A stretch of DNA of 64,000 nt from Glandiceps talaboti. Lineage: Eukaryota; Hemichordata; Enteropneusta; Spengelidae. The position numbers and the translations under genes are program-made. The notes beneath the pieces are model-generated. The model made no database searches. It was not told where the DNA came from and was given only the letters and a program-made list of their open reading frames with translations. Positions 3,301-36,600 of this stretch are shown here, in pieces (position 1 is the first letter of the stretch; each line of letters opens with the position of its first letter). The stretch covers positions 8,395,994 to 8,459,993 of the forward strand of contig NC_135552.1 of the NCBI RefSeq assembly GCF_964340395.1, written 5' to 3'.

Positions 3301-4157
3301 AACAATGTATTATTGAAACTCTATAGTCATTCTGGTTTGGTAGTAACTATCTTCTGAATGAAACTACATTTTCCACCTATTAAATTTGTATTTTAACCTT
3401 ATCAACAAATTGTTCCTCATCCTATAGTATCCACGCTTAGTGATGAAGTAAACATGGTAACAGTGTTATGTTGGGTAATGACGTCACCATCAACAGGTTG
3501 GAGGTTGAAAGCTGTTCAAGACACGTGGACTCGTCGCTGTGATAAAGTATTGTACATGAGTAGCTCGAGCGATACATCAGAGTCTGTGATTGGTCTAAAT
3601 GTTTCCGAAGGTCATAGAAATCTATGGGGTAAAACAAAGGCTGCCTTCAGATACATCTACAAGTATCATTTCGGTGACGCTGATTGGTTCCTCAAAACTG
3701 ATGACGACACATACGTCCTCGTAGAAAATCTACGCGACATGTTACGTCATTATAATCCCAACCAACCCCTCCTTTTGGGTCACCGGTTCCATCACCCGAC
3801 CAAGGGAAATCAAAGTTATATGAGTGGCGGAGCCGGTTACGTTCTCAGTAAGGCTGCACTGCAAAAGTTGGTTGAACTTGGTCTACCCGATGAAAAGAAG
3901 TGTCCATTTGGTGACAAGGGAGCTGAAGATAGATTAATAGGGAAGTGTTTGGAGAGTGTTGGAGTCGTTCACGGAGACACGAGAGATGGAAATGGTAGAC
4001 AAAGGTTCCTGCCGTTGTATTTGACGAGTTACTTCAGTAAACATTTACCGAAGTGGCTCTACAAGTTTGATTTTTATCCATTGATCAAGGTATGTATCAG
4101 TTGTTCTTTAAAAATCTCATCCTTCGATATCCAAAGATTATGACAGACAAATGAATG

Positions 4158-14056: not shown

Positions 14057-14196
14057 GAATAACTGACGAAATACGAAATAATGGTGAAACACTAAATAAT
14101 GGTGGAATGGTAATTAATGGTCACATAATTGATGAAAAAATAAATGTTAAATTAAGGTAAACTATTAAATAATGACAATGAAATAATGATGTAATA

Positions 14197-14306
14197 CAGC
14201 GAAGGGCAGCTCGGCGTTGCGATCTCTACGTAGCAGTAGACAAGTTTTATGTCTACACAAACAAAGAAACCCCAGTTATCTCAGGGCTCATTGTTGATTG
14301 TAGCTG
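14197..14306 (+). repeat. Left terminal inverted repeat
   Basis: It begins CAGCGAAGGGCAGCTC and matches the reverse complement of 19524-19633. The first 74 bases have three mismatches (offsets 6, 43 and 64). Similarity is looser to about offset 110, including the shared ttgttgattgtag. Confidence 0.92.
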
Positions 14307-14424
14307 ACACCCCATGGCTTGTAAATCACTATGCAAAAGTTGGCGCTCAGTTTGAATGTCTTGAGTTACAGTGACAGTTACATGTATCACTTCACGTGTA
14401 ACCATTCTCCTACCATCAGTGACC

Positions 14425-15504
14425 ATGTCGATTAATGCGGAAGGAAGACAATATGTATCTGGTAAAGCCTTGAGTGTTGACCTCAGAAACATCATTGTCG
14501 AAGCCATTAATATAGAGGCTGGAGGCAACAAAGTAACGGGTATAGTACCAAGAGGTGTCTACACTAGGATGGGTAAGCGATTCAAAGTAAGTAGGCAGGG
14601 TATTACGAAGATATGGATGCACTATGTCAGCACTGGATCAACAAAGCCAAAAGATAATCATGGCAATCAAGTTAAGAAATTATTGGAAGGGGATATAGTT
14701 TATCTGGAGAGTTTAAAAACTCAGAGACCAGGAATTACTGCCAAGGAAATGAGAACAAAGTTATCTCTTGTGTCACAAACCAGTGTCAGCGAAAGTACAA
14801 TCAAGCGTGCTGTTAGACAACGCTTTACTGGCGGAATATGGACATATAAACGGAACAGAACAGTAGCCAGAGAACGATATACGCTACCAAATCTGCGCTA
14901 CACTCAGGCCTATATAGATTTGCTTTATACAATTGATCCAAGACGACTCAAATTCATGGACGAGTCTGGTTTTAAGACTCCTGGATTGAGCCGCCCGAAC
15001 TACGGACACTCCCTCATCGGAACGAGATCGATTGAAATGATCCGCTATCACCAGAGTCCGAATACGACACTAAATTTGTTGGTTGGTCTTGATGGCATTA
15101 TGCATGCACAGACTATTGCCGGTGCCTCGGATTCTGTCAAGTACTTAGATTTTATTACAGAAAGCGTTGATTCTGTAACAGAGATTGGACAACAAGCACT
15201 ACAACCCGGCGATGTGCTTGTTGTCGACAATTGTCCAACCCACCACAGTGAAGTAGCTCAGGTACTGAATACATGGCTAGCAGCACAAGGTATCGAAGTA
15301 ATTTATACTCCCAAATATTCTCCAGAGTTTAATCCAGCAGAGAACTGCTTCAGTAAAGTAAAACACTGTATCCAGAACGACCCAGTCTTAGCAGAACTGA
15401 CCTATGAAAATATGCCTTTAGCTATATTTTCGGCACTCGACCTCGTGACACCAGGAGACTTGCGTGGGTTTTACCGTCACACGGGTTATTTGAATGTAAA
15501 TTAA
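14425..15504 (+). CDS. DD37E transposase, IS630/Tc1-mariner superfamily
   Basis: A single-exon gene of 359 residues from the ATG at 14425. The frame is open 18 codons further up to a non-ATG codon, but no upstream start is needed. It cuts the element at its ends and joins it to new DNA. The N-terminal third looks like a paired-type helix-turn-helix region (around LSVDLRNIIVEA and VSRQGITKIW). The DDE domain shows the first Asp in KFMDESGF, the second in VVDNCPTHH and the Glu in SPEFNPAEN. There are 37 residues between the second Asp and the Glu, hence DD37E. An AATAAA lies at 15937-15942, about 430 bases after the stop. No frameshift is seen, so it may be active. Confidence 0.92.
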   Translation: MSINAEGRQYVSGKALSVDLRNIIVEAINIEAGGNKVTGIVPRGVYTRMGKRFKVSRQGITKIWMHYVSTGSTKPKDNHGNQVKKLLEGDIVYLESLKTQRPGITAKEMRTKLSLVSQTSVSESTIKRAVRQRFTGGIWTYKRNRTVARERYTLPNLRYTQAYIDLLYTIDPRRLKFMDESGFKTPGLSRPNYGHSLIGTRSIEMIRYHQSPNTTLNLLVGLDGIMHAQTIAGASDSVKYLDFITESVDSVTEIGQQALQPGDVLVVDNCPTHHSEVAQVLNTWLAAQGIEVIYTPKYSPEFNPAENCFSKVKHCIQNDPVLAELTYENMPLAIFSALDLVTPGDLRGFYRHTGYLNVN

Positions 15505-17596
15505 TTCTGTCCTGACTGTTGACTGTCTCTCTTTACGTGTAGATGGATATGTATGAATGATACCACGTTGACATCCAAACTAATTGGAATTTTCATATCG
15601 TTTAGTCTGACTTGCGTTTGTTTTCATCAGTGATTTAACTTTACAAACTTTCCTGTATATTATTTGACAATTTGACAAAATGTTCAACTGCTGTCGTTTA
15701 TAACCTGTTAAATTTATTGAGTATCAAACAAGTTTTTGAATGAAACGAGAACTTAGTGTCAAGTCACTTCCATCTAACGCAATTTTCATGTTGAATATGT
15801 TCTTGCATGTTATAATTGGCGTCAAAATATGCTGATCTACTTCTGACTACTATGGTTTGAGCGATACATCTCTGTATTTTGTACCCCTGCTTGTATCACG
15901 AACACATTCGCCAGATCGCTGTAGGCGTACAGTTCCAATAAAGTTTTACATAATGCAACCATTATTACAAGTAGGCTAGACTCATGATTGTAGTTGAAAC
16001 TGCAGTACAAGTTTAATAAGAGTAAAAGTCTAGGCTACTAGCTATTGTACATGCAGACATTACCTTAATGGTATGTCATTGTAAATGCACAAGTAATCAC
16101 CAGTCATAAATCTTATACCGTTATGATCATTTGATTCCTTCGAAACTTAGTTATTAGGGGTCACTATATTTTTGCATTTACACTGTTACAGCCAGCAATT
16201 CATTGCTACTTGATTGCGTAATAGTGAAACACAAGATACTTCCGATTTTTCCGTATTTCGTCAATAGTCCACCACTGACATTTTGTTATTCACGTGTATC
16301 GTCGTGGACTTACTGAGATCAAATAACTGTAGCTACATGTTTTCAACCAGCACATGACCTCATAATACACTTGATGATGTGGCCTGACAAAAGTAAAGTA
16401 CCGTAGTCATGGTAGTTGCCAGAATTGACACAGCTGGTTTTTAACAGTGAGTAGTTAGTCTTATGTAATTATTCCAAATATTATGCCTGAGGGTAGACTC
16501 TGGAGACATTTTTTATCATAGCTACAACCGTGTGGTCTGAGAAAATCCAACGTCAGAAACAGTGAATTGGATGTGGAACAGTCCTGTTGGCATTCAGGTA
16601 TAATTTGCAATGAAATAAATGCAATGTAACACGATATATAGTACACAGTACATATTTTTTATTTCTGTGAAAAATACACATTGTATTCACAAAACTTGAA
16701 AACTTAAACACACATAACCATGTAAGTATTTGGTGAACATATAGAAAAGAAGGATATATGTATACAAATAAACACACTATTTTACTGTCAAGTACTTTTG
16801 ATTTGCAACATCCTTTTACTCAAGTCAATGGACTAGTAAGAGGTTCTCTCCCTATTCCATTGCAGTATACATGTTTATCAATACTAAAAGACATCAGTTC
16901 ATCAATTAGTAGTAAACAGATATGCATCAGTATTCAGTCAAGAAAAGAATCCACAAGTTTCCTATACACAATATCATCGACTTTGATTTAATATTTGAAC
17001 CCGTCCAATTTATATTAAATTCAAACAATATACCTGCAGTATAGTTTTTGTTGTGAAAACATTGTTTCGATGTTGCACTCGAATTTGTGACTCTTGTAAT
17101 CTATGGGGAAAAAACCTACTAAACAACAGCCAGTAGTTGGCTTTCTAACCCTGTGATGACGTAGGCATGTAGGATCGCTGGATTAGAAAGACTACAAGCT
17201 TCTGGGCAACTAAGCAACAACAAACAAAACCAAATTGAACAGCGAAACAATGGAACTAATTTTCCTGTTACTTCTAGTAATCAACATGGTAAACATGCTT
17301 TCAAAAAAAAACAAGAAACGTAAACCAAAATACAAAAAAGTAACAACACACAACTTATAGCCTTGAAAATATGCGCTCCGATGACTACGAAACATCTCCG
17401 TTAAACTCTCATAGTTCTAGCGGAAATGTGTTGAAGTTATCGAATAGCATATTTCCACAGTGTCAGTGACACATACATGTAACTACATGTATATAACAAA
17501 TTCGTAACTTGTAGGTTTTGCAATGATTGAACAATAATGACATGGGTAACAAGCGTCACTAGATTACATGCATTACAAGCGAATCTTGTGTAAACT
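15505..17596. other. Transposon interior between the two convergent genes
   Basis: About 2.1 kb, AT-rich, with no convincing ORF or repeat. It should contain the 3' UTRs of both transposon genes; AATAAA at 15937 would serve the transposase. Nothing else could be supported. Confidence 0.5.
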
Positions 17597-19162
17597 TCAC
17601 TTGGCATTTGGTGGGGGTGGTGGTAGTGGTATTCTGGGCGGTGACTCAGTTGGTAATGGCGGGGTTTCAGTTACGCTAGTTTCGGTGGAGACGGACGATG
17701 TGAGGGGAGAGGATGGGTCGTTTTGATTGGTAACATATCCACTCCAACTCGAACTCGTTGGTTGCATGACAGTGTGCGTACCCATTTGTGGAAAATAACC
17801 ATAGCTGCTATACATGGACGAGTATGGATGAATAGCGTAAGCATAAGGTGTTCCTGCTCCATAGTAGATTGGTGGTTGATATGTAGACATGACAGACGCT
17901 TGATCGAGACACGCATTTGCTGGTGATGGGACAGTCTTTTCATATGTTGTTGATTCGATGGACTCTTCTGTCATGTCTGTCTCGGTGTTCGATTTGGTAG
18001 CTCGTTGTGATGTTGACGCGTCAGAGGGAAATGTCACTTTATACTTATCATTTGTCTCCAGTAACTCGCGGACTCGATCTTTTGGTTTTACCAGTCCTCG
18101 TCGCTGTTTATACGTTGATATAACCTGTTGAAACTTCGCGCTCTCCCTTTCTAAGTTGTATGGCACTTTGTCATGGTAATGTTTCTTTAGGACGGAGATA
18201 TCGTGGTTCAGCAAATATCGTCTTGGCTGACGCCCTGTTGGAGTGTCGACGAGATACTTGTCTCTATCACTATTAATGAGAGCAGTTTCAATTTTTCTCT
18301 CAAAAGATGATAGAAGAGACGCTGCTAATTCACGTTTGTGAGCTAACTCACTCTCTACTTTCTTCATGTCTTTCTCTATTTCACATCTTCGTTTAGCAAG
18401 CGAACTCAACTGTACTTTCTCTTCTGCATGGGACGGATGGTTTATGTCGCCACATATCTGCGCTGACTGACAAATTGAGTATGGACATTGAGTCTTATTA
18501 TGACCTTCACGAAGGTGGCAGCGGCCACATCTTTTCTTTGTGGTGTCCTGTGTGACATTTGAACTATACTTCTCATTCAGTGCAGCTATGTCCTTCTGTA
18601 CAGCTTTGTATTCACTTTTCAGGTCAGACAGCTCACGCTCCTTATACTCGATATCCAACTGTAACGGTGCCTTATATTCATATTCATCTTCAGTTTTTTT
18701 CACTCGTGCGGGAGTACATGCACTGTGTAGTTCTGACTGGGACGATTCACTATCTTCCTGTGGACGTCCATCCAAAAGTTCAATTTGGCAGTGACTGAAG
18801 TTTAACTTTTTAGGATAGGTTCCAGTTGTTTGGTCTCCTTTACGTTTTCTCACTTCTTGCACTTGTAATGTTGTTGTTGCAGGTGAGCATCCCTCAACCA
18901 CTCCGATGCGTACTCGACGATACTCTGCATTATTGACAGTAACTGCGCACCTAAACAAATCACAGATATCAACACCATTGTCCGAAAGAGTGACAACAAC
19001 TCCATCTTCGTTCTCGTATGTTATCTGAAATTCGGTGAATCCTATGGACGGAATCTGTTCTGTTATCATACGACAAAGTTCTTGATAAGAAACAGAGCTT
19101 TTCAGATATATTTGCCGCGTTTTGTCACGATATGAAACCTGTACTTGGAAAGCGTATACCAT
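17597..19162 (-). CDS. Transposon-borne PB1 / zinc-knuckle / coiled-coil protein
   Basis: A single-exon ORF of 521 residues inside the transposon ends, convergent with the transposase. Residues about 4-89 look like a PB1 domain: a basic patch near YRDKTRQ and an acidic OPCA-like loop at 50-65 (ENEDGVVVTLSDNGVD). A coiled coil at about 172-198 precedes a zinc knuckle C212-x2-C215-x5-H221-x4-C226, followed by C231, C237, H242 and H245. A second coiled coil (about 247-290) leads to KIETALINSDRDKYL. The tail is Ser/Thr/Pro-rich and ends in a proline run. PB1 domains pair with other PB1 domains and zinc knuckles often bind nucleic acid, so it could assemble on transposon DNA or RNA. That role is inferred. 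It could instead be captured cargo. Confidence 0.88.
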   Translation of the reverse strand: MVYAFQVQVSYRDKTRQIYLKSSVSYQELCRMITEQIPSIGFTEFQITYENEDGVVVTLSDNGVDICDLFRCAVTVNNAEYRRVRIGVVEGCSPATTTLQVQEVRKRKGDQTTGTYPKKLNFSHCQIELLDGRPQEDSESSQSELHSACTPARVKKTEDEYEYKAPLQLDIEYKERELSDLKSEYKAVQKDIAALNEKYSSNVTQDTTKKRCGRCHLREGHNKTQCPYSICQSAQICGDINHPSHAEEKVQLSSLAKRRCEIEKDMKKVESELAHKRELAASLLSSFERKIETALINSDRDKYLVDTPTGRQPRRYLLNHDISVLKKHYHDKVPYNLERESAKFQQVISTYKQRRGLVKPKDRVRELLETNDKYKVTFPSDASTSQRATKSNTETDMTEESIESTTYEKTVPSPANACLDQASVMSTYQPPIYYGAGTPYAYAIHPYSSMYSSYGYFPQMGTHTVMQPTSSSWSGYVTNQNDPSSPLTSSVSTETSVTETPPLPTESPPRIPLPPPPPNAK

Positions 19163-19523
19163 TTTGGCAGCCTAAACATAACTCAACACAAGTTGTATTG
19201 TCGTCATGTGCGTGTGCCATGTGAGTGAGATTCCATGGATTTGTCAACGGGGAGTGATGAACTACAAGCTTTTACATGTATTTAATTTGTAATTTGAAGA
19301 TTTCATTCATCTTCAAAAAGATGTCTAAATGCTTGTACTTATTGAGATTAAAGTTAATCCTTGTATTCTGATTAATTGATATGTTTTTATCGTATGTAAG
19401 CATCAATCCCACCTAAATGAATGGTATCAACCGTTGGTGATAAAGTTCATTCCTCGTTGTAAACTGACATGACAGTGTGTGGTTGCAAACCTCATCAGAG
19501 CCAAGATAAACACAGGGGGGTGC

Positions 19524-19633
19524 CAACTACAATCAACAGTGGCCACTGAGAAAACCAATGTTTCTTTGTCTGTGTAGACATAAAACTTGTTTACTGCTAC
19601 GTAGAGATCGCAACGCCGAGCTGCCCTCCGCTG
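19524..19633 (-). repeat. Right terminal inverted repeat
   Basis: The reverse complement begins CAGCGGAGGGCAGCTC and mirrors 14197-14306. The outer 74 bases are nearly identical to the left end and the inner part is more diverged. Confidence 0.92.
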
Positions 19634-20812
19634 AACAGGAATAGAAAAGGTGAGATATATTGAAATGATTTATTTTTTTCGGGATCTCACCCCATATGAC
19701 AGCTGCTACACGATATTGTTTTCATGGCAACAAGTGAGTAGTTACTTGTCTGTGATGGCATAAGACTTTTCATTAAAGTATTGTTGTGCCGACATAATCC
19801 TATTTGTTGTGCCGACATAATCCTATTTGTGTCTCCAGGGATATATATCAGTGTATATCAGGGATGAAAGAATTGCCATCATTCTATATATGAAAACAAT
19901 TCACGGCGATTTCAAGTTTTGTGTTATATTTGTGTCCAGAATCCGTGCCTCATCATAGGCTAAATAGCTTTGACCAAATATAAGAAACTGAGAACGGACG
20001 CATGGTCTGGATGCCAACTGTGGTTTCTAACCACAGTCTGGTCAAAGTCCCTCAATCAGCACAGAAGTTGTTCGTCCAATCAGTGAACCCCAGCTCAGTG
20101 CTATAGTGGCGTAAACAATGTACAAGTAGCATCCTGAGCTGACATGACAACCATATTCGGACATTACAGAACTGTCCAAATAAACACTAACCTTTTGGGG
20201 GACTGTGTTATTGGTTAGAATTTCAGACCACTAAAAATCGTTAGTGGGCTGAGGATTGATTAACAAAGACACTATGTTAATGATTGTGTGGATGGCTGTG
20301 GATGAATTTTAAATTACTAGATGTAGTAGATGTAATGTGTAACATTTCTCGCGGATAGTACGGTCTAAATTGCTTCCGCCGTAGTGTTGAAATGTAGGCA
20401 TACAATGTACTAACATCTCCGTGAACAATGATGGGTATTTCTATTGTCGAAATAAATGTGCACACCAGCGTATTGTAGTAGTCTGTCTACTATCAAACAC
20501 TAACACAGGAGACAAAGTGCCAAATTCAATCCCTTGCAAGAAGTCTATCAGATAAGTCAAACAACATTGCAACGCGTACGTGAAACCGTTCGTGTGACTG
20601 AGTGACTGAGGGCGCTCGGTCGCATAGCAACGAATCGAACTCTAAAATCCGCGATTAGTAGTCGTAAAACTGGTGTCTACTAATCGGGTAACAGGCTCGT
20701 GATAAAATAGAAATATTATCGCTATGTGGCCCTCATATCATCCATTTTAGTATTAAATTCAAAATAAAGACGAACCACTGCAATATAAGGTTGACAAATA
20801 ATGTTTCCATAA
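19634..20812. other. Intergenic, with a 23-bp tandem duplication
   Basis: No exon recognised. The unit starting gttgtgccgacataatcc is present twice back to back (19783-19805 and 19806-19828). A short 8-bp hairpin (ctgtggtt/aaccacag) is near 20022-20040. Confidence 0.6.
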
Positions 20813-22851: not shown

Positions 22852-25800
22852 CAGCAGCAGTAGCAGTAGTAGTAGTAGTAGTAGTAGTTTATTTATCATA
22901 TTATTACCGTGATTGCTACTGATTGGAAGGATACATCCTCAAAAATGTAAACTTTTTTGAAAATAAGACAATATAGGAGGCCATTTAGAGGCATAAAATA
23001 TCAAACAAAAAACATAATTATAAAGTCTTACAAAGCTTGAATGTGGTTTTAAAATACCAGAATTGAGAGACAATTATGACATGCAGTACATTTTATCTGG
23101 CTATGAAGTGTATTTTGTTGTGGCAAAGCTGAAAGATATCTTGCAGATGTAGTAAATGACTTCTCCTGAACTTTAATTTGATTCCAAAAAATCATGAATA
23201 AAGAAAGAGTAAAACATTTGAAGACTTTCAGACTATCAGACTTTTGATGGCCCAATGACTGCCCTTCCCATGGTCATAAAGTTTTGCTCATTTCGTTTAG
23301 TGAATATTGGATATGCAACAGTTTAATTTTATCTCAATTCATGCTTGTATGCATCATCAGAGCCAAGTAAACCACTGGTAGTACATAATTTGGAATTGAC
23401 TCAAATGTATATTGTTACATGTACTATTCAGAAAATATAAAGAAATTCCCTTAATTTTGAAACAAAGTGTGCATTTCACTGACATGCAAAGCCAGCATGA
23501 GGATATTTTGCCCATCACTAACAAAAAAAATTGAAATGCCAAAAAATATGGGTAGGTAGGGCCCGTTGAACAGCTTTTTTTCTCTGGCCTAACGCCCATT
23601 TTTTGTATGATGACCGTCCATGCATGTAATATTTGCTCGCAAGTTACTATGGTACAGATGTACTCATACATATTATGCTAAAGCTTATTTTTTTGTTGCC
23701 CCAGCTTGCGAGAATGAGCACATGAGGACAGCGAATATGCCAGTGATGATTTGATTTGACTTGATTTTGATTTTGATTTTGATTTGACTTGATTTTGGTG
23801 GTTTATAACACTGACTTTTCTATCGTTTTTCTTTCCCTGACTAGACTTTTCGTAGACAGCTGAATATTCACTCTCCCTATTGACTAAATAAAAACACCAC
23901 ATTCTTTTTCCTCTGGGAGATTATCACATCAAAAATATGTTTCCGCATACTGATTAGGTATAATGTGGATGTATGTATATTTGGTATGTTAATATCCCAA
24001 AAGATAAGCTGGTAGGTAAACTGTGGGGGTAACTGTTACCATGGTAATTAGAAGGTGTCAATAATAGTGTTTCATTAATAGTTATATAGTTTTATAATAA
24101 TAGTTTTCATTTATTCAGTCAATTAAGAGAGTGAATTTGGATTATATGCAGTTGAGGAAAAGGCGATTCAGGTAAAGAAAAACAATAGAAAGATCGGTGG
24201 TATTCAACCACCAGTCTCACATCAAATCAAATCATTTTCACTGCCCCTTGTGGAATGAGACTAAATTTGTCATTTGTTTCGCACAGATACAACCAAATCT
24301 CCAGTGTCTTCAATGAATCCAGCAGCTAGTGTCAGAATACTGTGTTTTGTGACGACATCGCCGACGACTGCACCAATCAGACTACAAGCTGTGAAAGATA
24401 CCTGGAGTAAACGATGCGATAAAATGTTGTACTTCAGTAGCGTAGATGATCGTAATCAATCAATCATTGGTCTAAATGTTACTGAAGGCTACGAAAAACT
24501 TTGGGGCAAAACTAAAGCAGCGTTCAAATACATCTACCGATACCACTTGGACGATGCTGATTGGTTCCTGAAAGCTGATGACGACACATACGTTGTGGTT
24601 GATAACCTACGACTAATGCTGGAACAGTATAAGTCGCCAGAACCTGTTTATTTTGGGCATAGATTGCTTTTGCCGAGAACAAACCAAAGTTTCATGCATG
24701 GAGGGGCCGGATATGTCTTAAATAAGCCAGCCCTTATGATGTTAGCGGAAAAGGGTTTACGTAATCACAAATTATGTGTACCTGGTGAACACGGAGAAGA
24801 AGACGTTCTTATGGGGGAGTGTTTAGAGAGGATGGGAGTTATTCACGGTGATTCTAGGGATGAGTTTGGAAAACAACGATTCGTAATCTTGTCACTTGAC
24901 AATCATTTCAAAGCGACTTTACAGAAGTGGATACAAAAATATGAGTACTTTCCATATGTTGTGGTGAGTGAATCTTTTAAAAGAAAATGTTACATCCCAC
25001 CCTCACCCCCCCCCCAATCTAATAGTATCAACCTAATATTACAATCAGATGTAGGCATACGATTCGATTCCTTTATTTCCTTTTATTACCTTGCCGATCC
25101 TTTGTCCTTGATTTTGTCTTTTTGGGAGTGATCATCTCATCCTTGGGAGCAGTCACACCCAAAGAGAAATTTTAAGACAGTCAAAAACAACCGACAATAT
25201 ACGAAGGAAGGAATTTAAATAAATCGAACCGTACTCAATCGGGTTTTTAAAAAAAAATGTCTGAGAAGAAAGTTCACAAATGACGTATACACGATGCAGC
25301 ATAATGTTATAATTGCCGAAGTCGCGATCAGAGCGAGCTTGCTGGAAGTTTTGGACATCGTCAAGTGGTGGCTGTCACCACTTGACGATGTCCATAAGCA
25401 GTACAGCAGTGCTTATAACTGATGTTCCTGTCAAACATGTTCCACACATCCCCGGCCCTAGAGTCAAGTCTTGTGGAGGAATTTGGCTATCGCATCTTAT
25501 CATCATGCCTAGCAAGCCATAACCCTGATGGGAGAAGGCGATAGCCGACATCCCCACACGATTTGACTAGTATCATATTATAGGCTATTGCATGCAATGA
25601 GGGCTCGTGACGGGAAACTCTATCCCTGCTACATGTTATTATTTTACTGGCGCGGCAGGGTATTTACTACTAACTGACTGCCGTCGCGTGACTAAACGTT
25701 CGAACAATTAATTGGATGTTGGTATAACATGTGCCGCTAAATACAGTCTCCTGGGGGTATTTTGATTCTAGAGCAATTATGAACGCACTAGGGAGATAAC

Positions 25801-30640: not shown

Positions 30641-33600
30641 TTATGATGAGTACATGTATGTAGAAAAGGCTGATCCTGATGGAGTGATGTTCTGACTGCT
30701 AACATCTTCTCTTATTGGAATGAAATGCTGTAAAAAGAAGAAAACCATGTGTTATTCTGTAAGTATGTTCCCTCAATTAAAACATAAAGTTTCAATCCCA
30801 AATTCTCGCATTAGAATCCCAAGTTTTCGCATTAGTTTTATTTTATCAGTGGAGCCATAAAGATGATGTGGGATTATTTTTTTGTTCTGGACTATCTTTT
30901 TCTATAGCCACACCTGTGGATCTTTGAGGCCACATTTTGGATCTTTGAAGCCACACGTGGATCTATGAGGCCACACGTGTTGATCTTTGAAGCCACACCT
31001 GTGGATCTTTGAGGCCACACGTGTGAATCTTTGAGGCCACATGTGTGAATCTTTGAGGCCACGTCACATGTGTGAATCTTTGAGGCCACACGTGTGGATC
31101 TTTGAAGCCACACCTGTGCCTAAAACTTGTATGTCATTTTGAATACAACTTTACACTATGATGACCAAACATGGCATGGTTCTCCTTGAGTTCATATGTT
31201 GGTGAGTACTGGTCTATACCAAAGAGAATTGAGAAAACCTGCATTGCAACCTAATATTTTACAACTACCAGTACTGTTCTATGCAGTGTAACTTTTTGTA
31301 AACCTAGAAATAAAGTAAACTTACAGTGTCATCTCCATCTAGTAACACTTTGGCGACCGGGTTGGTGAAGTTTCTCTCAACTGAAGGTGTGGCTGCAAAT
31401 TTACCCAGCAGTCTACAAGTGTACAGTGCCACTTCTTCATCCAGCAAGGCCTCATGGAACAATTGGTTGGCATTTCCTAAATATCAGAAAACATGCTAAT
31501 TAGCATAAAAGCTTTGCAAGCACAATAACCGCAGAGGTAATACTTCATGTTTGAAGTTCCATGCAACAATTTTCAGCATGTCTTAACATCAAGAAAGTTA
31601 CACACATTTACACTGCAGGAAAATATAGCAAAACACTGCTATTTCAGGCGTAACGGTTTACACTGAAATTGCAATCAATCAAACTTACCTATAGTTGGAC
31701 ATCTTGGTACTGTCAAGTTATATCTGTTGGGGCTTGTTTTCCTCTTCAAATTTGCACCAAGTGAAAGAGAGCCCTGAACTGGCATACCACTGTTTACAAC
31801 TGGACTTTTCTCTTTCTGTATTGTAGGACTGGTTTTGAAGCTCTTTTCAAAACTTTCTCCATTCTCTGGTTCTGTCAATTTAGTTTCATTACTAGCAGAT
31901 GTCCAGGCAGCTGGTGGGGTACAACTTTCATTCTTCTTTGCAGTATCAGAATTTCTTTGCTTCTGTAACACTTCATCTAATTGGTTGATAGTCGGCTGAG
32001 GCTGCGCATTGATTGGTTCTTTGTTTATAGCCAATGAGGAGGCTGGTTGCACAGTTGTCAAGGAAACTGATGGGTTAGCATGTGACGTGGTAGAGCCAGT
32101 CATGGGTCTTCTGACTTCTGGAGATACCATTCTGGCAAGAGGTGAGTCCAATGTTAAACTGAATGGGATTGGGCCGTTTGATGCAAAGGGAGTGACAGCA
32201 GCATTCTGCATTGCCAGGGGAGTCCTGATTGGTAAATCAATATCAGCATACACTTGTCTTGTTACTGATGGTGTCTTGGGTAGAAACTGTGACGTATCCA
32301 GTTTGCCTGGAACTATGGGTCTCGGGGTCTGGATTTTTCGGTAAACATTAGGGTCATTATAGTCTGATGAACTCAATGTCCTAGTAGTGGTAGGAGCATT
32401 ACCTGTTGAAATTGAAACTTTGTAAGAAGAGCCAACTGCAGAAGTTGATAGTGAATTGTTACACTGGGACAGCGCACAAGAGTCCTTGTGAGCTGTAGTT
32501 GCTGTGTGGAGAAATGATCGCTCACCAGCAGTGTTAGCTAATTTGACCCCGACATTCCCATCTCTAAATCTTGAAGCTGTGGATGGTGTCTGGGGAATTG
32601 AGAAGTTGTGTTGTTTTATGCCTACATGGTCCACACTCTCAGATGTGTAATTGTTTACTTTCAATACTCCAGGAATGTGAGACAGTATTGACGATGATGG
32701 CATAAGACCAACTGGATCTCTGTTTTGTTGTACGCCCACAACAGGTTGCACTGGTCCTGATGCTGGCAAGGAGGATGGTACACATCCTGTCACACTATAC
32801 GTGGTCTGAGATGTTGGTTTTGATGTAACTGTATCTGTTGGCATTTGAAGGTGGCTAGGTAGATATGTAGACATTCTGGGAGTATTGGTATTGATAGTTT
32901 TTGTAGCCCTGTCATCCAAGCCACAGGAAGACTGACTAGTATAGACTGCATAGCTCCTCTCACTGGACAAGTTTGGTTCTTTTGACCCCAAATCACTATG
33001 TGATATCATATTGACGTGTTGATTTTGGTTTGTAGGCACAAAAGATGTAGACAAGGGATGGCTTTCATATCTATGTGAAGTAGTCGCCACATTTTTGGCT
33101 CTGGAACTTGTTGAAATATCTTGTTTTTCAAAAGCAGATTTTGTTTGTAACATGTCACATTGTACAGAGGGCAACCCTACGTTTCCTCTCATTGATTGGA
33201 ACATACTGTGAGATGGGGTTCGGGTAATACTGGATGGAATACCACCCTGTTGAAACATGCTGTGAACCTGAAACTGTCCATACTTTTGATTATGATTTTC
33301 AGGCTGATGATGGTGGGGTGCTGATGATTGTTGTAACTGCATCTGTGGTGGCAAAATACTGGGTGAAGGCATAGCTGTTGCTATTCCATGTACTGATTCT
33401 ACCAGCTGACTGTAAGACTCCTGGTACTGATGATGTTTCAATTGCTTAGCTCTGGGTGCCTCAAAGCTGCCACAACTGTGTGTTGGTAAAGTTGAACGAT
33501 CTCCTACAGGCAGTGTAGTTTGCTGATTATTACAATGGTTCATATTCCCTAATCTAGTGACTTGACTGTCAGTATTCGGCATTTCCGGTGATCTGAATGC

Positions 33601-36600
33601 ACTAGCAGCAAGTTGCTGTGTTGGATGACTATAACACTGCGACTGTGACTGCAGACTCTGCTGTCCTGGCTGTTCTTGCATTTGTTTGTTCTGTATCAGT
33701 GCTTGCTGGTACAAATGTAAACTATGGCTATCCAGGTTTAGTCTCTCATAATGCTGACTGTTTGATGTCGGTCCAAATACAGAAGACTGCGTCAACTGTG
33801 ACTGAGTCCTTCCTTTTAGTACAGGAGTGCACACACTATTTATGGCATTTGGCAGTGAACTCACAACACTTGGCACAGCAGAGGTGACAAAGGAACATGA
33901 CTTTGGTGTCTGACTTCTCACATCGGTAGGCAGTGAACTAGCCACCTGGCTTTCCAATGGTGGGACATCGTTTTTCTCCAGCCACTGAATTTCTAACTCT
34001 AACAATCTTTCAACTTCTTCCATTTCCTGACAGTAAAGGAAACATTTGTGAGTTTCAAGTTCATGATAATTTGATGACAAATTCACAGCAAATCAGGTAT
34101 ATTTTGATGTCATCAGAATTCATGGTCATTAAAAAGTGAATCAGAAAGTCTGCATGTACAAAACTAGACATTTCCTGGTACAATACCTCTCTGTTACACA
34201 ATTTTGACACAAGAGCTATGTTACGGTGACCCTATTTTTTTATGTTTCTCATTACTTTTTCATGGCAACTATGGGTCGGACGGTTGGTCGATATAAAAAA
34301 AGTAAAAAAATAAAAAATAATCATGTTTCTCTGCCTCTCCCCTCATCCTCCTCTCTATCTTCATTTTATTATATTCCTGGTAACAAACCCTTTCCCAGCT
34401 TCTCTACACAACTGGCATGTTCTCAGCCCCACTCTTTGAATAATTTCCATCATGAAAGAAATGCTCTATTTGTGATCAAGTGTCACCGCCGCCACCAACA
34501 TGACTGTAGGCAATGTTGACAGTCATGACACTTGTTTTTCTTGCCAGATAAGGCACTATTCCGAAAAATATTAAGGGTGGGCAAAAATCAAAACATTTTT
34601 TTTTTGATGTCGGAGCTGAAAATTTGGGCAGGTAATGAGAAACAAAAGATAACAAATAGGGTTACCCTAACAAAAGATTTCATTTTGATATCCATTATTG
34701 TGGTTGCAAGTTAAAGGAACACAAGTTGAATTTATATGTTTTTGGGATGTAATTTTAGATGCATATTAATCAGTCTTCTACTCACTGATCTATACGTAAC
34801 CATCACTTGCAATTAACTGAACTCAAACCTGGTATATATTAGGACATAATACAATCCAACGACAATCTATTATACATATCAAACAATGTAACATGAACTC
34901 CCTACTATGTAATCAACAATTCTAACAATGCCAGAACACAAATTGTAATGTCATAGAAGGCGTGCATTGACTTTACACTAGAATTGTTTCATCAAAGTTG
35001 TTATTTTCACCAGCATAAAAAGCTTACAAACTCAGTTTGTGATACTTTAAACGTTGATGTTGTTTTGTTGCTGGAAACATTACTGGAATTTATCAAAAGG
35101 GGAAAGAATACCTTGTGAATTCATCATGTTTAATAAAAACTTGGATTTCAAACAAGATAAAATGTGTTGGATTCGTTCACCTGCACATATCAGTACACAG
35201 TTGGCATAGATCTGAACTTAGGAGGAAGTGATATGATGAGACTTGGTAGACAAAGTTCAAGGTACAGATCACATGAAATGTTTTATCTCTCTCTTCCTAA
35301 ATAAACAAAAAGAATTTTTGTATTTCATGTTCCTGGCAAGTACTGTGAGATGCATGGTTTCATTCAAGCCATACTTTTTTTTTTTAAAGTACACTTGTAG
35401 AGCCATATTATATAAATATACAGTATATGATACACTTCCATAATTATTTTGACAACCATGATGACAAATCTACAAGTGTACTTCAAATTTTCACCAGTTT
35501 ATTGGACATGCCAAAGATCAAGTATAAATGTTTCATTTTCTTATTAAAGGCCAGTGTTTCAATTCTAGGTTCTTGCACTAGTCGTTATCTTATCAGTGGC
35601 GCCATAAGGAATTACATAGGATTATTCTTTTGTCCACGATTAAATTTTTCTATAGCTTTGTCAGACATATGTTTTTCACATGTAAATTTCAATCCTCATG
35701 CAAAGTGAGTATTTTAACCATGGATAAAGAAAACACATCAAAGCTTAGACTTGCTACAGCGTGACTTTGATGAGTACAACACACACAATCCTCCACTACA
35801 GACTTACTTTCAGTTTCTGCAAGTCGTCTTGTCTCTGTCTGATGACATCTGCTTGTACATCCAGTGGTTTTTGTACACCATAAGGGGTGCTATGTTCTGT
35901 TATGGCAACCCTAGTCTTAGGCTGGTCAGTTTCCTGTAGGAGTCAAGAAGCAAAGACATGGATTTATCAGAAACTTCAATTGGCCATCTGGATGGGGATT
36001 GGGTATTTATTTTGGAGTTTTAATTCATAAAACAATTTTACCACGACTTTCTACTTGAAAAAATCAATGTGAAACAACATAGACCAAGTCTGTGTTTGTA
36101 ACTCAATACATTGCAAAAAGCTGAAATATGTGTAAAAAGTTTGTCATTGTAAGTACAATAACAAATATTTTACACATTCATCAATCTTTTGCAATGTATT
36201 GAGTTACAAACAAGGACTTGGAATACGTTGTTTCACATTGATTTTTCAAGTAGGAGGCCATGATACAATTGTTTTATAAATTAAAACTCCAAAATAAATA
36301 TTCAATCCTCATCCATATGGCCACTTCAACATAATCACATTAGCAGGCCATAGAAATATTTTCTTACAGTGCCCACAAGAGAAAACTAATCAATCTACAA
36401 AAAAAAAACCCTCAGTTGTGATAAATAAATACACTTGCCATATCTGTCTGTCTGTACCAAGTGTGATTCAGTGTCTTTAATATTAGAACTGATAATGTGA
36501 TGACTCATCTTGTGTCGTCACCATCAAAGCATAGTTCAACAGTGTGGCATTAGTAAAGAAACGGATGTCCAGACTAAAATACATGGCAACTAAGAGCCGC

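Follow-up and report, generated by a model that had tools for sequence, protein, structure and literature searches.

A two-gene Tc1/mariner-type transposon of an acorn worm with a conserved PB1- or SAM-bearing accessory gene

Introduction

Tc1/mariner elements serve textbooks as the example of a transposon with one gene: they are usually shorter than 2 kb, and gene-transfer tools in wide use have been derived from them. The window analysed here, a stretch of 64,000 nucleotides from the genome of the acorn worm Glandiceps talaboti, holds an element of this type that spans 5,437 bases and carries two genes. Does the second gene belong to the transposon, or does it lie between the transposon ends by accident or capture, and, if it belongs, what might its product do? 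The first-pass annotation had described long inverted ends around two intact, convergent genes, one for a DD37E transposase and one for a protein of 521 residues, and had taken the latter for a conserved partner. We followed up this proposal with profile, structure and genome-wide comparisons.

Results

The element has mariner-type ends and a mariner-type transposase

Both open reading frames are, as the annotation had it, intact and convergent and enclosed by inverted ends; these are terminal inverted repeats of 117 nt. The left arm (14197–14313, forward strand) and the right arm (19517–19633, reverse strand, located by inverted-repeat detection) agree at 103 of 117 positions (88%), including 71 of the first 74; the left arm recurs at two further genome loci with 100% and 98% identity. 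Searching the window for a 17-base core of the ends, with up to three mismatches allowed, gives two hits, one at each end (0.01 expected). The left end is preceded by the dinucleotide TA (14195–14196), present at the same position in sister copies L130 and L131, and the right end is followed by AA (19634–19635) where TA is expected, so the target-site duplication of this copy is imperfect. TA flanks both ends in 8 of the 13 copies examined (L130, L134, C16, C22, C2, L143, L144 and C19b); the right end of L131 is truncated, and those of L132, L133 and C8 are ambiguous. Arrays of short repeats lie near the ends in the C16/C22 lineage (seven copies of a 12-mer) and in the SAM lineage described below (five); they are not general and are therefore left out of the argument.

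The transposase gene (14425–15504, forward strand) encodes 359 residues. Its N-terminus (residues 4–129; 14434–14811) matches the PAX family of paired-type DNA-binding domains (PF00292, 25.4 bits against a cutoff of 22, E 1.4e-5), and residues 175–318 (14947–15378) match the DDE_3 catalytic domain (PF13358, 72.8 bits, E 3.4e-20). The catalytic residues D179, D268 and E306 are invariant across the 25 sequences of alignment A1, with 37 residues separating the second D from the E; this DD37E spacing is shared by 10 of the 11 transposases examined, the C19b lineage being DD38E. The score with the NCBIfam model of the IS630 family is 99.8 bits, just short of the cutoff of 100. Structure comparison of the fold model finds Mos1 (E 4.5e-10), Sleeping Beauty (E 3.2e-7) and Pax structures. 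The element thus combines a DDE_3/IS630-type catalytic domain, a paired-type helix-turn-helix N-terminus, inverted terminal repeats (in the window and in other lineages) and, across the copies, TA target-site duplication, all of which define the Tc1/mariner superfamily; it departs from the usual, non-defining trait of a single gene in less than about 2 kb. Related transposases occur in Ptychodera, Saccoglossus, Oculina, Montipora and Mytilus, and a scan of viral contigs with the transposase returned 79 relatives, all at 42% identity or less.

The accessory protein joins a PB1 domain to an unusual zinc cluster

The accessory gene (17597–19162, reverse strand) encodes 521 residues comprising a PB1 domain, a zinc cluster with coiled coils, a conserved helical stretch and a tail rich in Pro, Tyr, Ser and Gln. 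AATAAA motifs lie 3' of the transposase gene (15937–15942, forward strand) and of the accessory gene (16658–16663, reverse strand), identified as motifs only. The annotation had called the product a PB1, zinc-knuckle and coiled-coil protein, a description that holds in part. The PB1 assignment stands: residues 5–62 (18977–19150, reverse strand) match PF00564 with 29.9 bits against a cutoff of 23.6 (E 5.4e-7), and the same family is found in L134 and L110. Pfam recovers PB1 in only three of the six members of alignment A2, the others being assigned by alignment, as is the C19b exon, in which Pfam finds no PB1; the C19b/L150 lineages have a predicted intron. A profile match of the domain to Cdc24 (E 0.033) is not significant.

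The zinc region (residues 212–245; 18428–18529, reverse strand) is not the plain retroviral-type CCHC knuckle, C-x2-C-x4-H-x4-C, from which it differs in spacing and in its extra Cys and His residues. It is a larger cluster, C-x2-C-H-x4-H-x4-C-x4-C-x5-C-x7-H, in which C212, C215, H216, C226, C231, C237 and H245 are invariant across the seven proteins of alignment A3. The cluster has no significant Pfam match, zf-CCHC being absent up to E 1, and a profile match to CDCA7 (E 0.063) is not significant; kinase, recombinase, gag and ORF1 families are likewise absent from the whole protein in Pfam up to E 1. The coiled coils appear only in a low-confidence single-sequence structure model (mean pLDDT 49), which predicts helices or coiled coils at residues 159–210 (18533–18688, reverse strand) and 243–302 (18257–18436, reverse strand), with block means of 83–94 at residues 171–200 and 251–280. 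A fold search with this model found nothing at E 0.001 or better, and with that mean pLDDT the overall fold was set aside as unusable. The low-complexity tail (approximately residues 405–521; 17600–17950, reverse strand) ends in poly-proline, and P, Q, S, T, Y and G make up 60% of the last 150 residues.

A protein-collection search, which depends on shared five-residue words, recovered no relative of the full protein at E 1e-3 among 7063 candidates and none of residues 170–350 at E 10 among 393. Intact relatives encoded elsewhere in the same genome are also missing from this search, which suggests that they lack annotation. No relative of the accessory protein turned up in scans of viral contigs.

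The two genes are paired throughout the genome

Had the PB1 gene been a single-copy host gene, with other copies of the ends carrying only the transposase, the two-component proposal would have failed. The genome shows the opposite. A transposase match lies no further than 5 kb from 36 of the 44 PB1-matching loci, against 0.07 expected; a single decayed repeat on C20/C21 accounts for 12 of these 36. The other eight, which have no transposase match, are all partial or broken copies. Seen from the transposase, an accessory gene or its remnant adjoins all 20 matches of at least 290 residues (17 by search, three by reading); by our own grouping these fall into sets of 3, 3, 4, 1, 1, 1, 3, 3 and 1, and are therefore not 20 independent cases. 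This count from the transposase side took in 45 of 91 transposase matches, namely those spanning at least about 129 residues, one per locus, plus two of 106; for 29 of the 45 an accessory match lies no more than 6 kb away. Among the accessory loci entered, second matches that overlapped a first were omitted, as were the majority of SAM-only and tail-repeat matches and some repeat pieces, and one remnant (L144) was added by hand. Four seemingly transposase-only candidates (L144, C19b, L150 and L151) were dismissed, accessory sequence being present in each; at L146, a decayed transposase locus, the 6 kb read holds none.

The paired elements sort into about nine lineages, whose transposases share as little as 28% identity with that of the window copy. 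Inverted ends enclose both genes in the window, L132, L133, L134, C16, C22, C8, C2, L143 and C19b, and enclosing arms were not found in the stretches read around C14 and L150. Two-gene elements of these lineages measure about 4.2–6.0 kb. Where copies of the same lineage were compared, the similarity runs to the element ends and stops there, the flanks being unrelated (on one side only for the C16 pair).

Gene order and the N-terminal domain change while the pairing persists

In C8 and C2 the two genes are divergent instead of convergent, and the pairing is retained. In the L143 lineage a SAM domain stands in place of PB1, and the zinc cluster is kept. The SAM call narrowly passes for PF07647 (21.1 bits, cutoff 20.5) and falls short for PF00536 (16.5 bits, cutoff 23); the best match among solved structures is a SHIP2/ephrin-receptor SAM chain (E 1.2e-4). 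SAM-only matches were considered as a possible host source of the domain, and the two that were read, L148 and L149, share end sequence with the SAM-type element and so are deleted derivatives of it.

Identity by codon position in the accessory gene is 51/62/33% between the window and L132 and 63/70/35% between C8 and C2, and the transposase gene has the same pattern. We used this measure since synonymous sites are mostly saturated, which renders pairwise dN/dS between lineages uninformative. Judged by codon positions, both genes are shown to be under protein-level constraint. Together with the alignments and the invariant zinc-cluster residues, this pattern bears out the conservation claimed for the partner. 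Divergence of the two proteins is correlated across six non-redundant elements (r 0.904, equalled in 6 of 720 relabellings).

Discussion

The window almost certainly holds one copy of a two-gene, cut-and-paste IS630-Tc1-mariner transposon, in which the pairing of a transposase with a PB1-or-SAM, zinc-cluster and coiled-coil protein recurs in about nine lineages of one genome, mostly (of those read) between inverted ends, and both genes are constrained. That a transposase and a host gene met between matching ends by chance, or through an assembly artefact, could draw on the missing TA on the right flank; this reading is of negligible probability, given that the pair recurs across the genome, that flanks differ from copy to copy and that other copies have TA at both ends, and the co-location count (36 of 44 against 0.07) rules out chance nesting and a host gene alike. 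DNA transposons commonly capture genes, and a captured host gene carried passively between the ends is a further alternative. For the plant MUGB genes, a capture of PB1 has been reported (PMC8616336). Such a hitchhiker is very improbable here, being contradicted by retention of the accessory gene across lineages down to 28% transposase identity and by the codon pattern of constraint; nor does the genome hold a separate intact accessory gene, the eight unpaired loci all being degraded.

On the most likely account, these two-gene Tc1/mariner-type transposons make up a clade, and the accessory protein that they encode would multimerise and serve transposition; for the accessory protein as a multimerising cofactor, taken together with the element anatomy, we would put the probability at roughly 45%. 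PB1 and SAM domains are capable of head-to-tail assembly, and the N-terminal domain, PB1 or in one lineage SAM, could link accessory monomers in this way. The coiled coils may strengthen the resulting chain, and the zinc cluster may touch nucleic acid or the transposase. Weak multivalent contacts may come from the low-complexity tail. Such a multimer would gather transposase at the long ends and promote or regulate synapsis or target capture, by analogy with the partner proteins of other two-gene transposons. Several observations temper this proposal. Ordinary single-gene Tc1/mariner transposases are active without an element-encoded partner, and two proteins that are inherited together can diverge in step even if they never touch. 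The SAM call barely clears its cutoff, Pfam finds PB1 in only part of the members, and the structure model is poor with an empty fold search; in the stretches read, no accessory sequence was seen at L146 and no enclosing arms around C14 and L150.

Other functions compete with a transposition cofactor. The accessory protein might be a ribonucleoprotein factor whose zinc cluster binds the element's mRNA while PB1 or SAM and the coiled coil self-assemble, so that translation or import of the transposase would stay linked to the element encoding it (cis preference) or RNA would be taken into germ cells. Gag and ORF1 proteins of retroelements appear to have a similar layout, and the order of oligomerisation domain, coiled coil, C/H cluster and low-complexity tail recalls it; cut-and-paste transposition, however, has no RNA intermediate, and Pfam finds no gag, ORF1 or zf-CCHC family up to E 1, so we hold this to be unlikely. 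Equally unlikely in our judgement is a host-directed factor, an anti-silencer or decoy set against small-RNA or chromatin repression of the element. Other DNA transposons do carry anti-silencers, and the tail and linkers are poorly conserved; on the other side, the zinc cluster is strictly conserved, and co-divergence with the transposase suits a partner internal to the element at least equally well. Finally, mariner-type elements show overproduction inhibition, and a negative regulator that curbs the transposase and spares the host damage would also be co-inherited and co-diverge with it. Elements would be expected to shed a gene that did nothing but repress, and to do so frequently, but all 20 transposase matches of at least 290 residues have an accessory gene or remnant beside them, and we regard this role as less probable still.

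A bolder version of the cofactor reading appears doubtful at present: a whole animal clade, in which the relatives of this transposase from other hemichordates, from molluscs and from corals would be counted, would be obligately two-component. Its second protein would use a head-to-tail domain that can be exchanged, PB1 or SAM, to polymerise on the ends or on the transposase, and would be needed for transposition or set its efficiency and target choice. In any case, a second gene that an ancient clade has retained despite deep divergence, a reversed gene order and the swap of one putative polymerisation domain for another points to a function that the transposase alone does not supply. An acorn worm thus carries mariner-type transposons with a long-conserved second gene and a scaffold-like product, a partner that may be needed or used, and the dependence of mariner-type transposition on an assembled partner becomes testable.

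Such genes may have been overlooked, in part since at least one survey took 2 kb either side of the transposase (available sections of PMC10379824), when the far end of the window element lies about 4.1 kb past the transposase stop, and in part since the accessory protein has no match in the protein collection. As that source describes them, the DD37E groups TRT, L18 and Mosquito/MS have in common with the window element a DDE_3 transposase of about 340–360 residues, a paired-type N-terminus, the 37-residue spacing, inverted ends and a TA target. MS elements are given there as mostly 1.3–1.8 kb with one transposase ORF, variants above 4 kb being mentioned, in contrast to the 4.2–6.0 kb and two genes in Glandiceps. 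Going by host range, L18 would be the likeliest clade for the window transposase. Titles and abstracts of the literature searched held no PB1- or SAM-bearing Tc1/mariner element, a weak negative in that the usual slashed spelling was partly missed. In the transposon-derived plant MUGB genes MUG7 and MUG8, PB1 is also tied to a DNA transposon lineage, but as described it forms an additional exon of a gene for a Mutator-like transposase (PMC8616336, in part), whereas in Glandiceps it sits on a separate protein. The ciliate TBE/Tec elements likewise join additional ORFs to a Tc1/mariner-type transposase; in the portions of PMC4724952 and PMC7325037 available, all three TBE genes are under purifying selection and a 57 kD ORF has zinc-finger and kinase domains. 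They differ in host and in having three ORFs, and those portions mention no PB1 or SAM, the accessory proteins being compared by description. RAG-like (RAGL) transposons also live in animals and likewise pair the gene for a DDE recombinase with a convergent partner gene (PMC7204232, in part), but the window transposase is IS630/mariner-type, not RAG1-like, and its partner is of PB1/SAM type, so that the likeness is one of architecture only. By analogy, then, the ciliate TBE/Tec and the two-gene RAG-like elements may serve as precedents for the two-gene layout found here.

A two-gene element and its close copies

The element at positions 14197–19633 of the window is enclosed by two terminal inverted repeats (arms) of 117 bases each, identical at 103/117 positions overall and at 71/74 in the outer part. 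Between the arms lie two convergent genes, a transposase of 359 amino acids on the plus strand and an accessory protein of 521 amino acids on the minus strand. The transposase combines a paired-type N-terminus with a DDE_3 catalytic domain in which 37 residues separate the second D from the E, and its predicted fold matches the Mos1 transpososome and Sleeping Beauty. The accessory protein begins with a PB1 domain, followed by two long predicted helices flanking a cysteine/histidine cluster exceeding a retroviral zinc knuckle in size, then a conserved stretch and a Pro/Tyr/Ser/Gln-rich tail with a poly-proline end. The flanking dinucleotides are TA on the left and AA on the right. The left inverted end contains a 21-base palindrome-like stretch (14236–14256; 7-base arms, 7-base centre). 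As for the surroundings, a long ATGT-type microsatellite (13660 to ~14066) stops ~130–140 bases left of the element, Fringe/galactosyltransferase-like coding stretches flank it on both sides (3397–4140 and 24265–25128), and an 805-codon open frame on the minus strand (31678–34092) has no Pfam match at E 0.01.

The element lies on contig C5 of the Glandiceps talaboti genome, and its lineage has two further copies, L130 and L131, whose similarity to it stops at the element boundaries, leaving the flanks unmatched. L130 (C5:13255049) matches the window copy at 99.1% over 4,688 aligned positions; its transposase, one residue shorter at 358 amino acids, is the best database match of ours. A deletion runs from within its accessory gene into the right end, sparing only the final 11 bases; a TA follows these, so that TA stands on both sides. 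L131 (C7:7826914) matches at 96.8% over 5,246 positions; a frameshift with a stop interrupts its accessory gene, and its right end, shortened and separated by other DNA, lies ~17.7 kb further on in locus L084. Because the accessory gene is disrupted in both, the window copy is the only one of this lineage with both genes open.

The accessory gene accompanies long transposase matches across the genome

We searched the genome with both window proteins, repeat counts being lower bounds. At least 77 accessory and at least 91 transposase matches group into 83 loci, 36 with both genes, 8 with the accessory gene only and 39 with the transposase only; chance would yield ~0.07 pairs. Since a single decayed repeat on C20 and C21 accounts for 12 of the 36 paired loci, the independent pairs are fewer than 36. 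These twelve copies (11 places at ~2.7–8.2 Mb of C20, spread across several megabases, and C21:70086–72549) hold both remnants on the same strand at nearly constant internal spacing and may belong to a larger repeated unit.

We also used divergent accessory proteins as queries and read apparent exceptions individually. Among transposase matches of at least 290 residues, the search placed accessory matches within 6 kb of 17/20, and reading recovered accessory sequence at the remaining three: a remnant in L144, a 62-residue remnant in L151 (97% to the C16 protein) and a 3' exon in L150 (in a frame of 758 codons, 50% identical to the exon of C19b). Some of the 20 are recent copies of others, and by our grouping they amount to about nine lineages. 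Of 45 transposase matches compared, 16 had no accessory hit inside the same 6 kb limit; two are L150 and L151, and the other 14 are all short, decayed or more distant. Reading one of these 14, L146, revealed no accessory sequence in the 6 kb covered. The first-pass annotation had named transposase-only copies, with PB1 as a single-copy host gene elsewhere, as the finding that would undo its two-gene reading. The genome presents a different picture: pairs recur, all 8 accessory-only loci are partial or broken, and every long transposase match is accompanied.

Diverse lineages share the two-gene layout

In L132, L133 and L134 (transposase 51–52%, accessory protein 41–42% identical to the window's), arms of 95–105 bases with 98–100% identity enclose both genes. 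Directly after the right end of L133 lies a second, partial accessory gene (L133:6407–7264), with matches of 953 bases to those of L132 (98.8%) and L134 (99.7%), as if copies had nested or rearranged. The pair is convergent in the C16 and C22 elements (arms of 186 bases, 89%, and 185 bases, 88%) and divergent, with 5' ends face to face, in the C8 and C2 elements (146 bases, 97%, and 103 bases, 76%). L143, with close copies on C16 and C2, has a convergent pair within arms of 84% identity; its 840-residue accessory protein retains the zinc cluster and starts instead with a SAM domain (PF07647, 21.1 bits vs cutoff 20.5; best solved structure a SHIP2/ephrin-receptor SAM chain, E 1.2e-4).

A distant transposase, C19b (only 29% identical to the window's, DD38E; arms of 59 bases, 93%), is accompanied by a PB1/zinc-cluster protein in two open stretches. 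The first terminates at a consensus donor, CAG|GTGAGT, and the second is preceded by a pyrimidine-rich acceptor ending in CAG; an acceptor of the same kind occupies the corresponding protein position in L150, which together point, by sequence, to an intron in this lineage. The stretches read for C14 and L150 showed no enclosing arms. TA stands on both sides in 8 of the 13 copies examined.

Seven copies of a 12-mer like CTTAGCATTTGG cluster near the ends of the C16 and C22 elements (L135/L107/L136 and L142/L114/L127), and five copies of a different short repeat near those of L143; both are candidate binding-site arrays. Non-autonomous copies probably exist, since L148 and L149 are deleted SAM-element derivatives keeping an end and the SAM region, and in L088 two ends resembling the window's face each other across a short stretch.

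Constraint, co-divergence and possible function

Because synonymous sites have mostly reached saturation between lineages, we compared identity by codon position. Positions 1/2/3 are 51/62/33% identical in the accessory gene between window and L132 (494 codons) and 63/70/35% between C8 and C2 (415 codons); the transposase gives 61/69/34% and 68/76/40%, respectively. Judged from these alignments, the pattern is the mark of protein-level constraint in both genes. Accessory and transposase identities correlate across six non-redundant elements (r 0.904, reached by 6/720 relabellings); a first estimate of 0.985 over 28 pairs was inflated by near-identical copies. Across seven aligned accessory proteins, seven cluster residues and Y11, R16, S93, P94, L120 and G238 are invariant. 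Residues 118–122 of the window protein and the matching place in L132, L133, L134, C16, C8 and C2 share a stretch of the form [K/R]-x-L-x-F or R-x-L-F (KKLNF, KRLRF, RELF or RRLF), kept within an otherwise variable linker; the SAM-type protein lacks it in its first 230 residues. We take it to resemble a cyclin-docking motif.

The zinc cluster and the coiled-coil/helical region stay constant among the accessory proteins, while the N-terminal domain is exchangeable between PB1 and SAM, both classes known for head-to-tail assembly. This combination suggests a self-assembling scaffold that would bind nucleic acid or transposase. The window PB1 has the invariant basic R16 in its first strands and an ENEDG stretch where, presumably, the acidic motif is expected; by analogy with known PB1 types, it would thus have both surfaces that self-assembly needs. 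Since the accessory protein co-diverges with the transposase and accompanies its every long match, we tentatively prefer to see in it a transposition cofactor or regulator rather than a protein acting on the host. A Gag-like RNA binder and an anti-silencing factor are less favoured alternatives.

Comparison with known systems

By the features tested the element is of Tc1/mariner type, yet usual members differ from it in length and in lacking a second gene. A limited literature search turned up no such element described with a PB1 or SAM partner. Multi-gene Tc1/mariner elements are described from ciliates (TBE and Tec; PMC4724952, PMC7325037), and the RAG-like group comprises convergent two-gene transposons of animals (PMC7204232). 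Database matches place relatives of the transposase, at 35–62% identity, in Ptychodera, Saccoglossus, Mytilus, Oculina and Montipora; because every long Glandiceps match in this identity range is accompanied, we predict by analogy that these elements carry the partner gene too.
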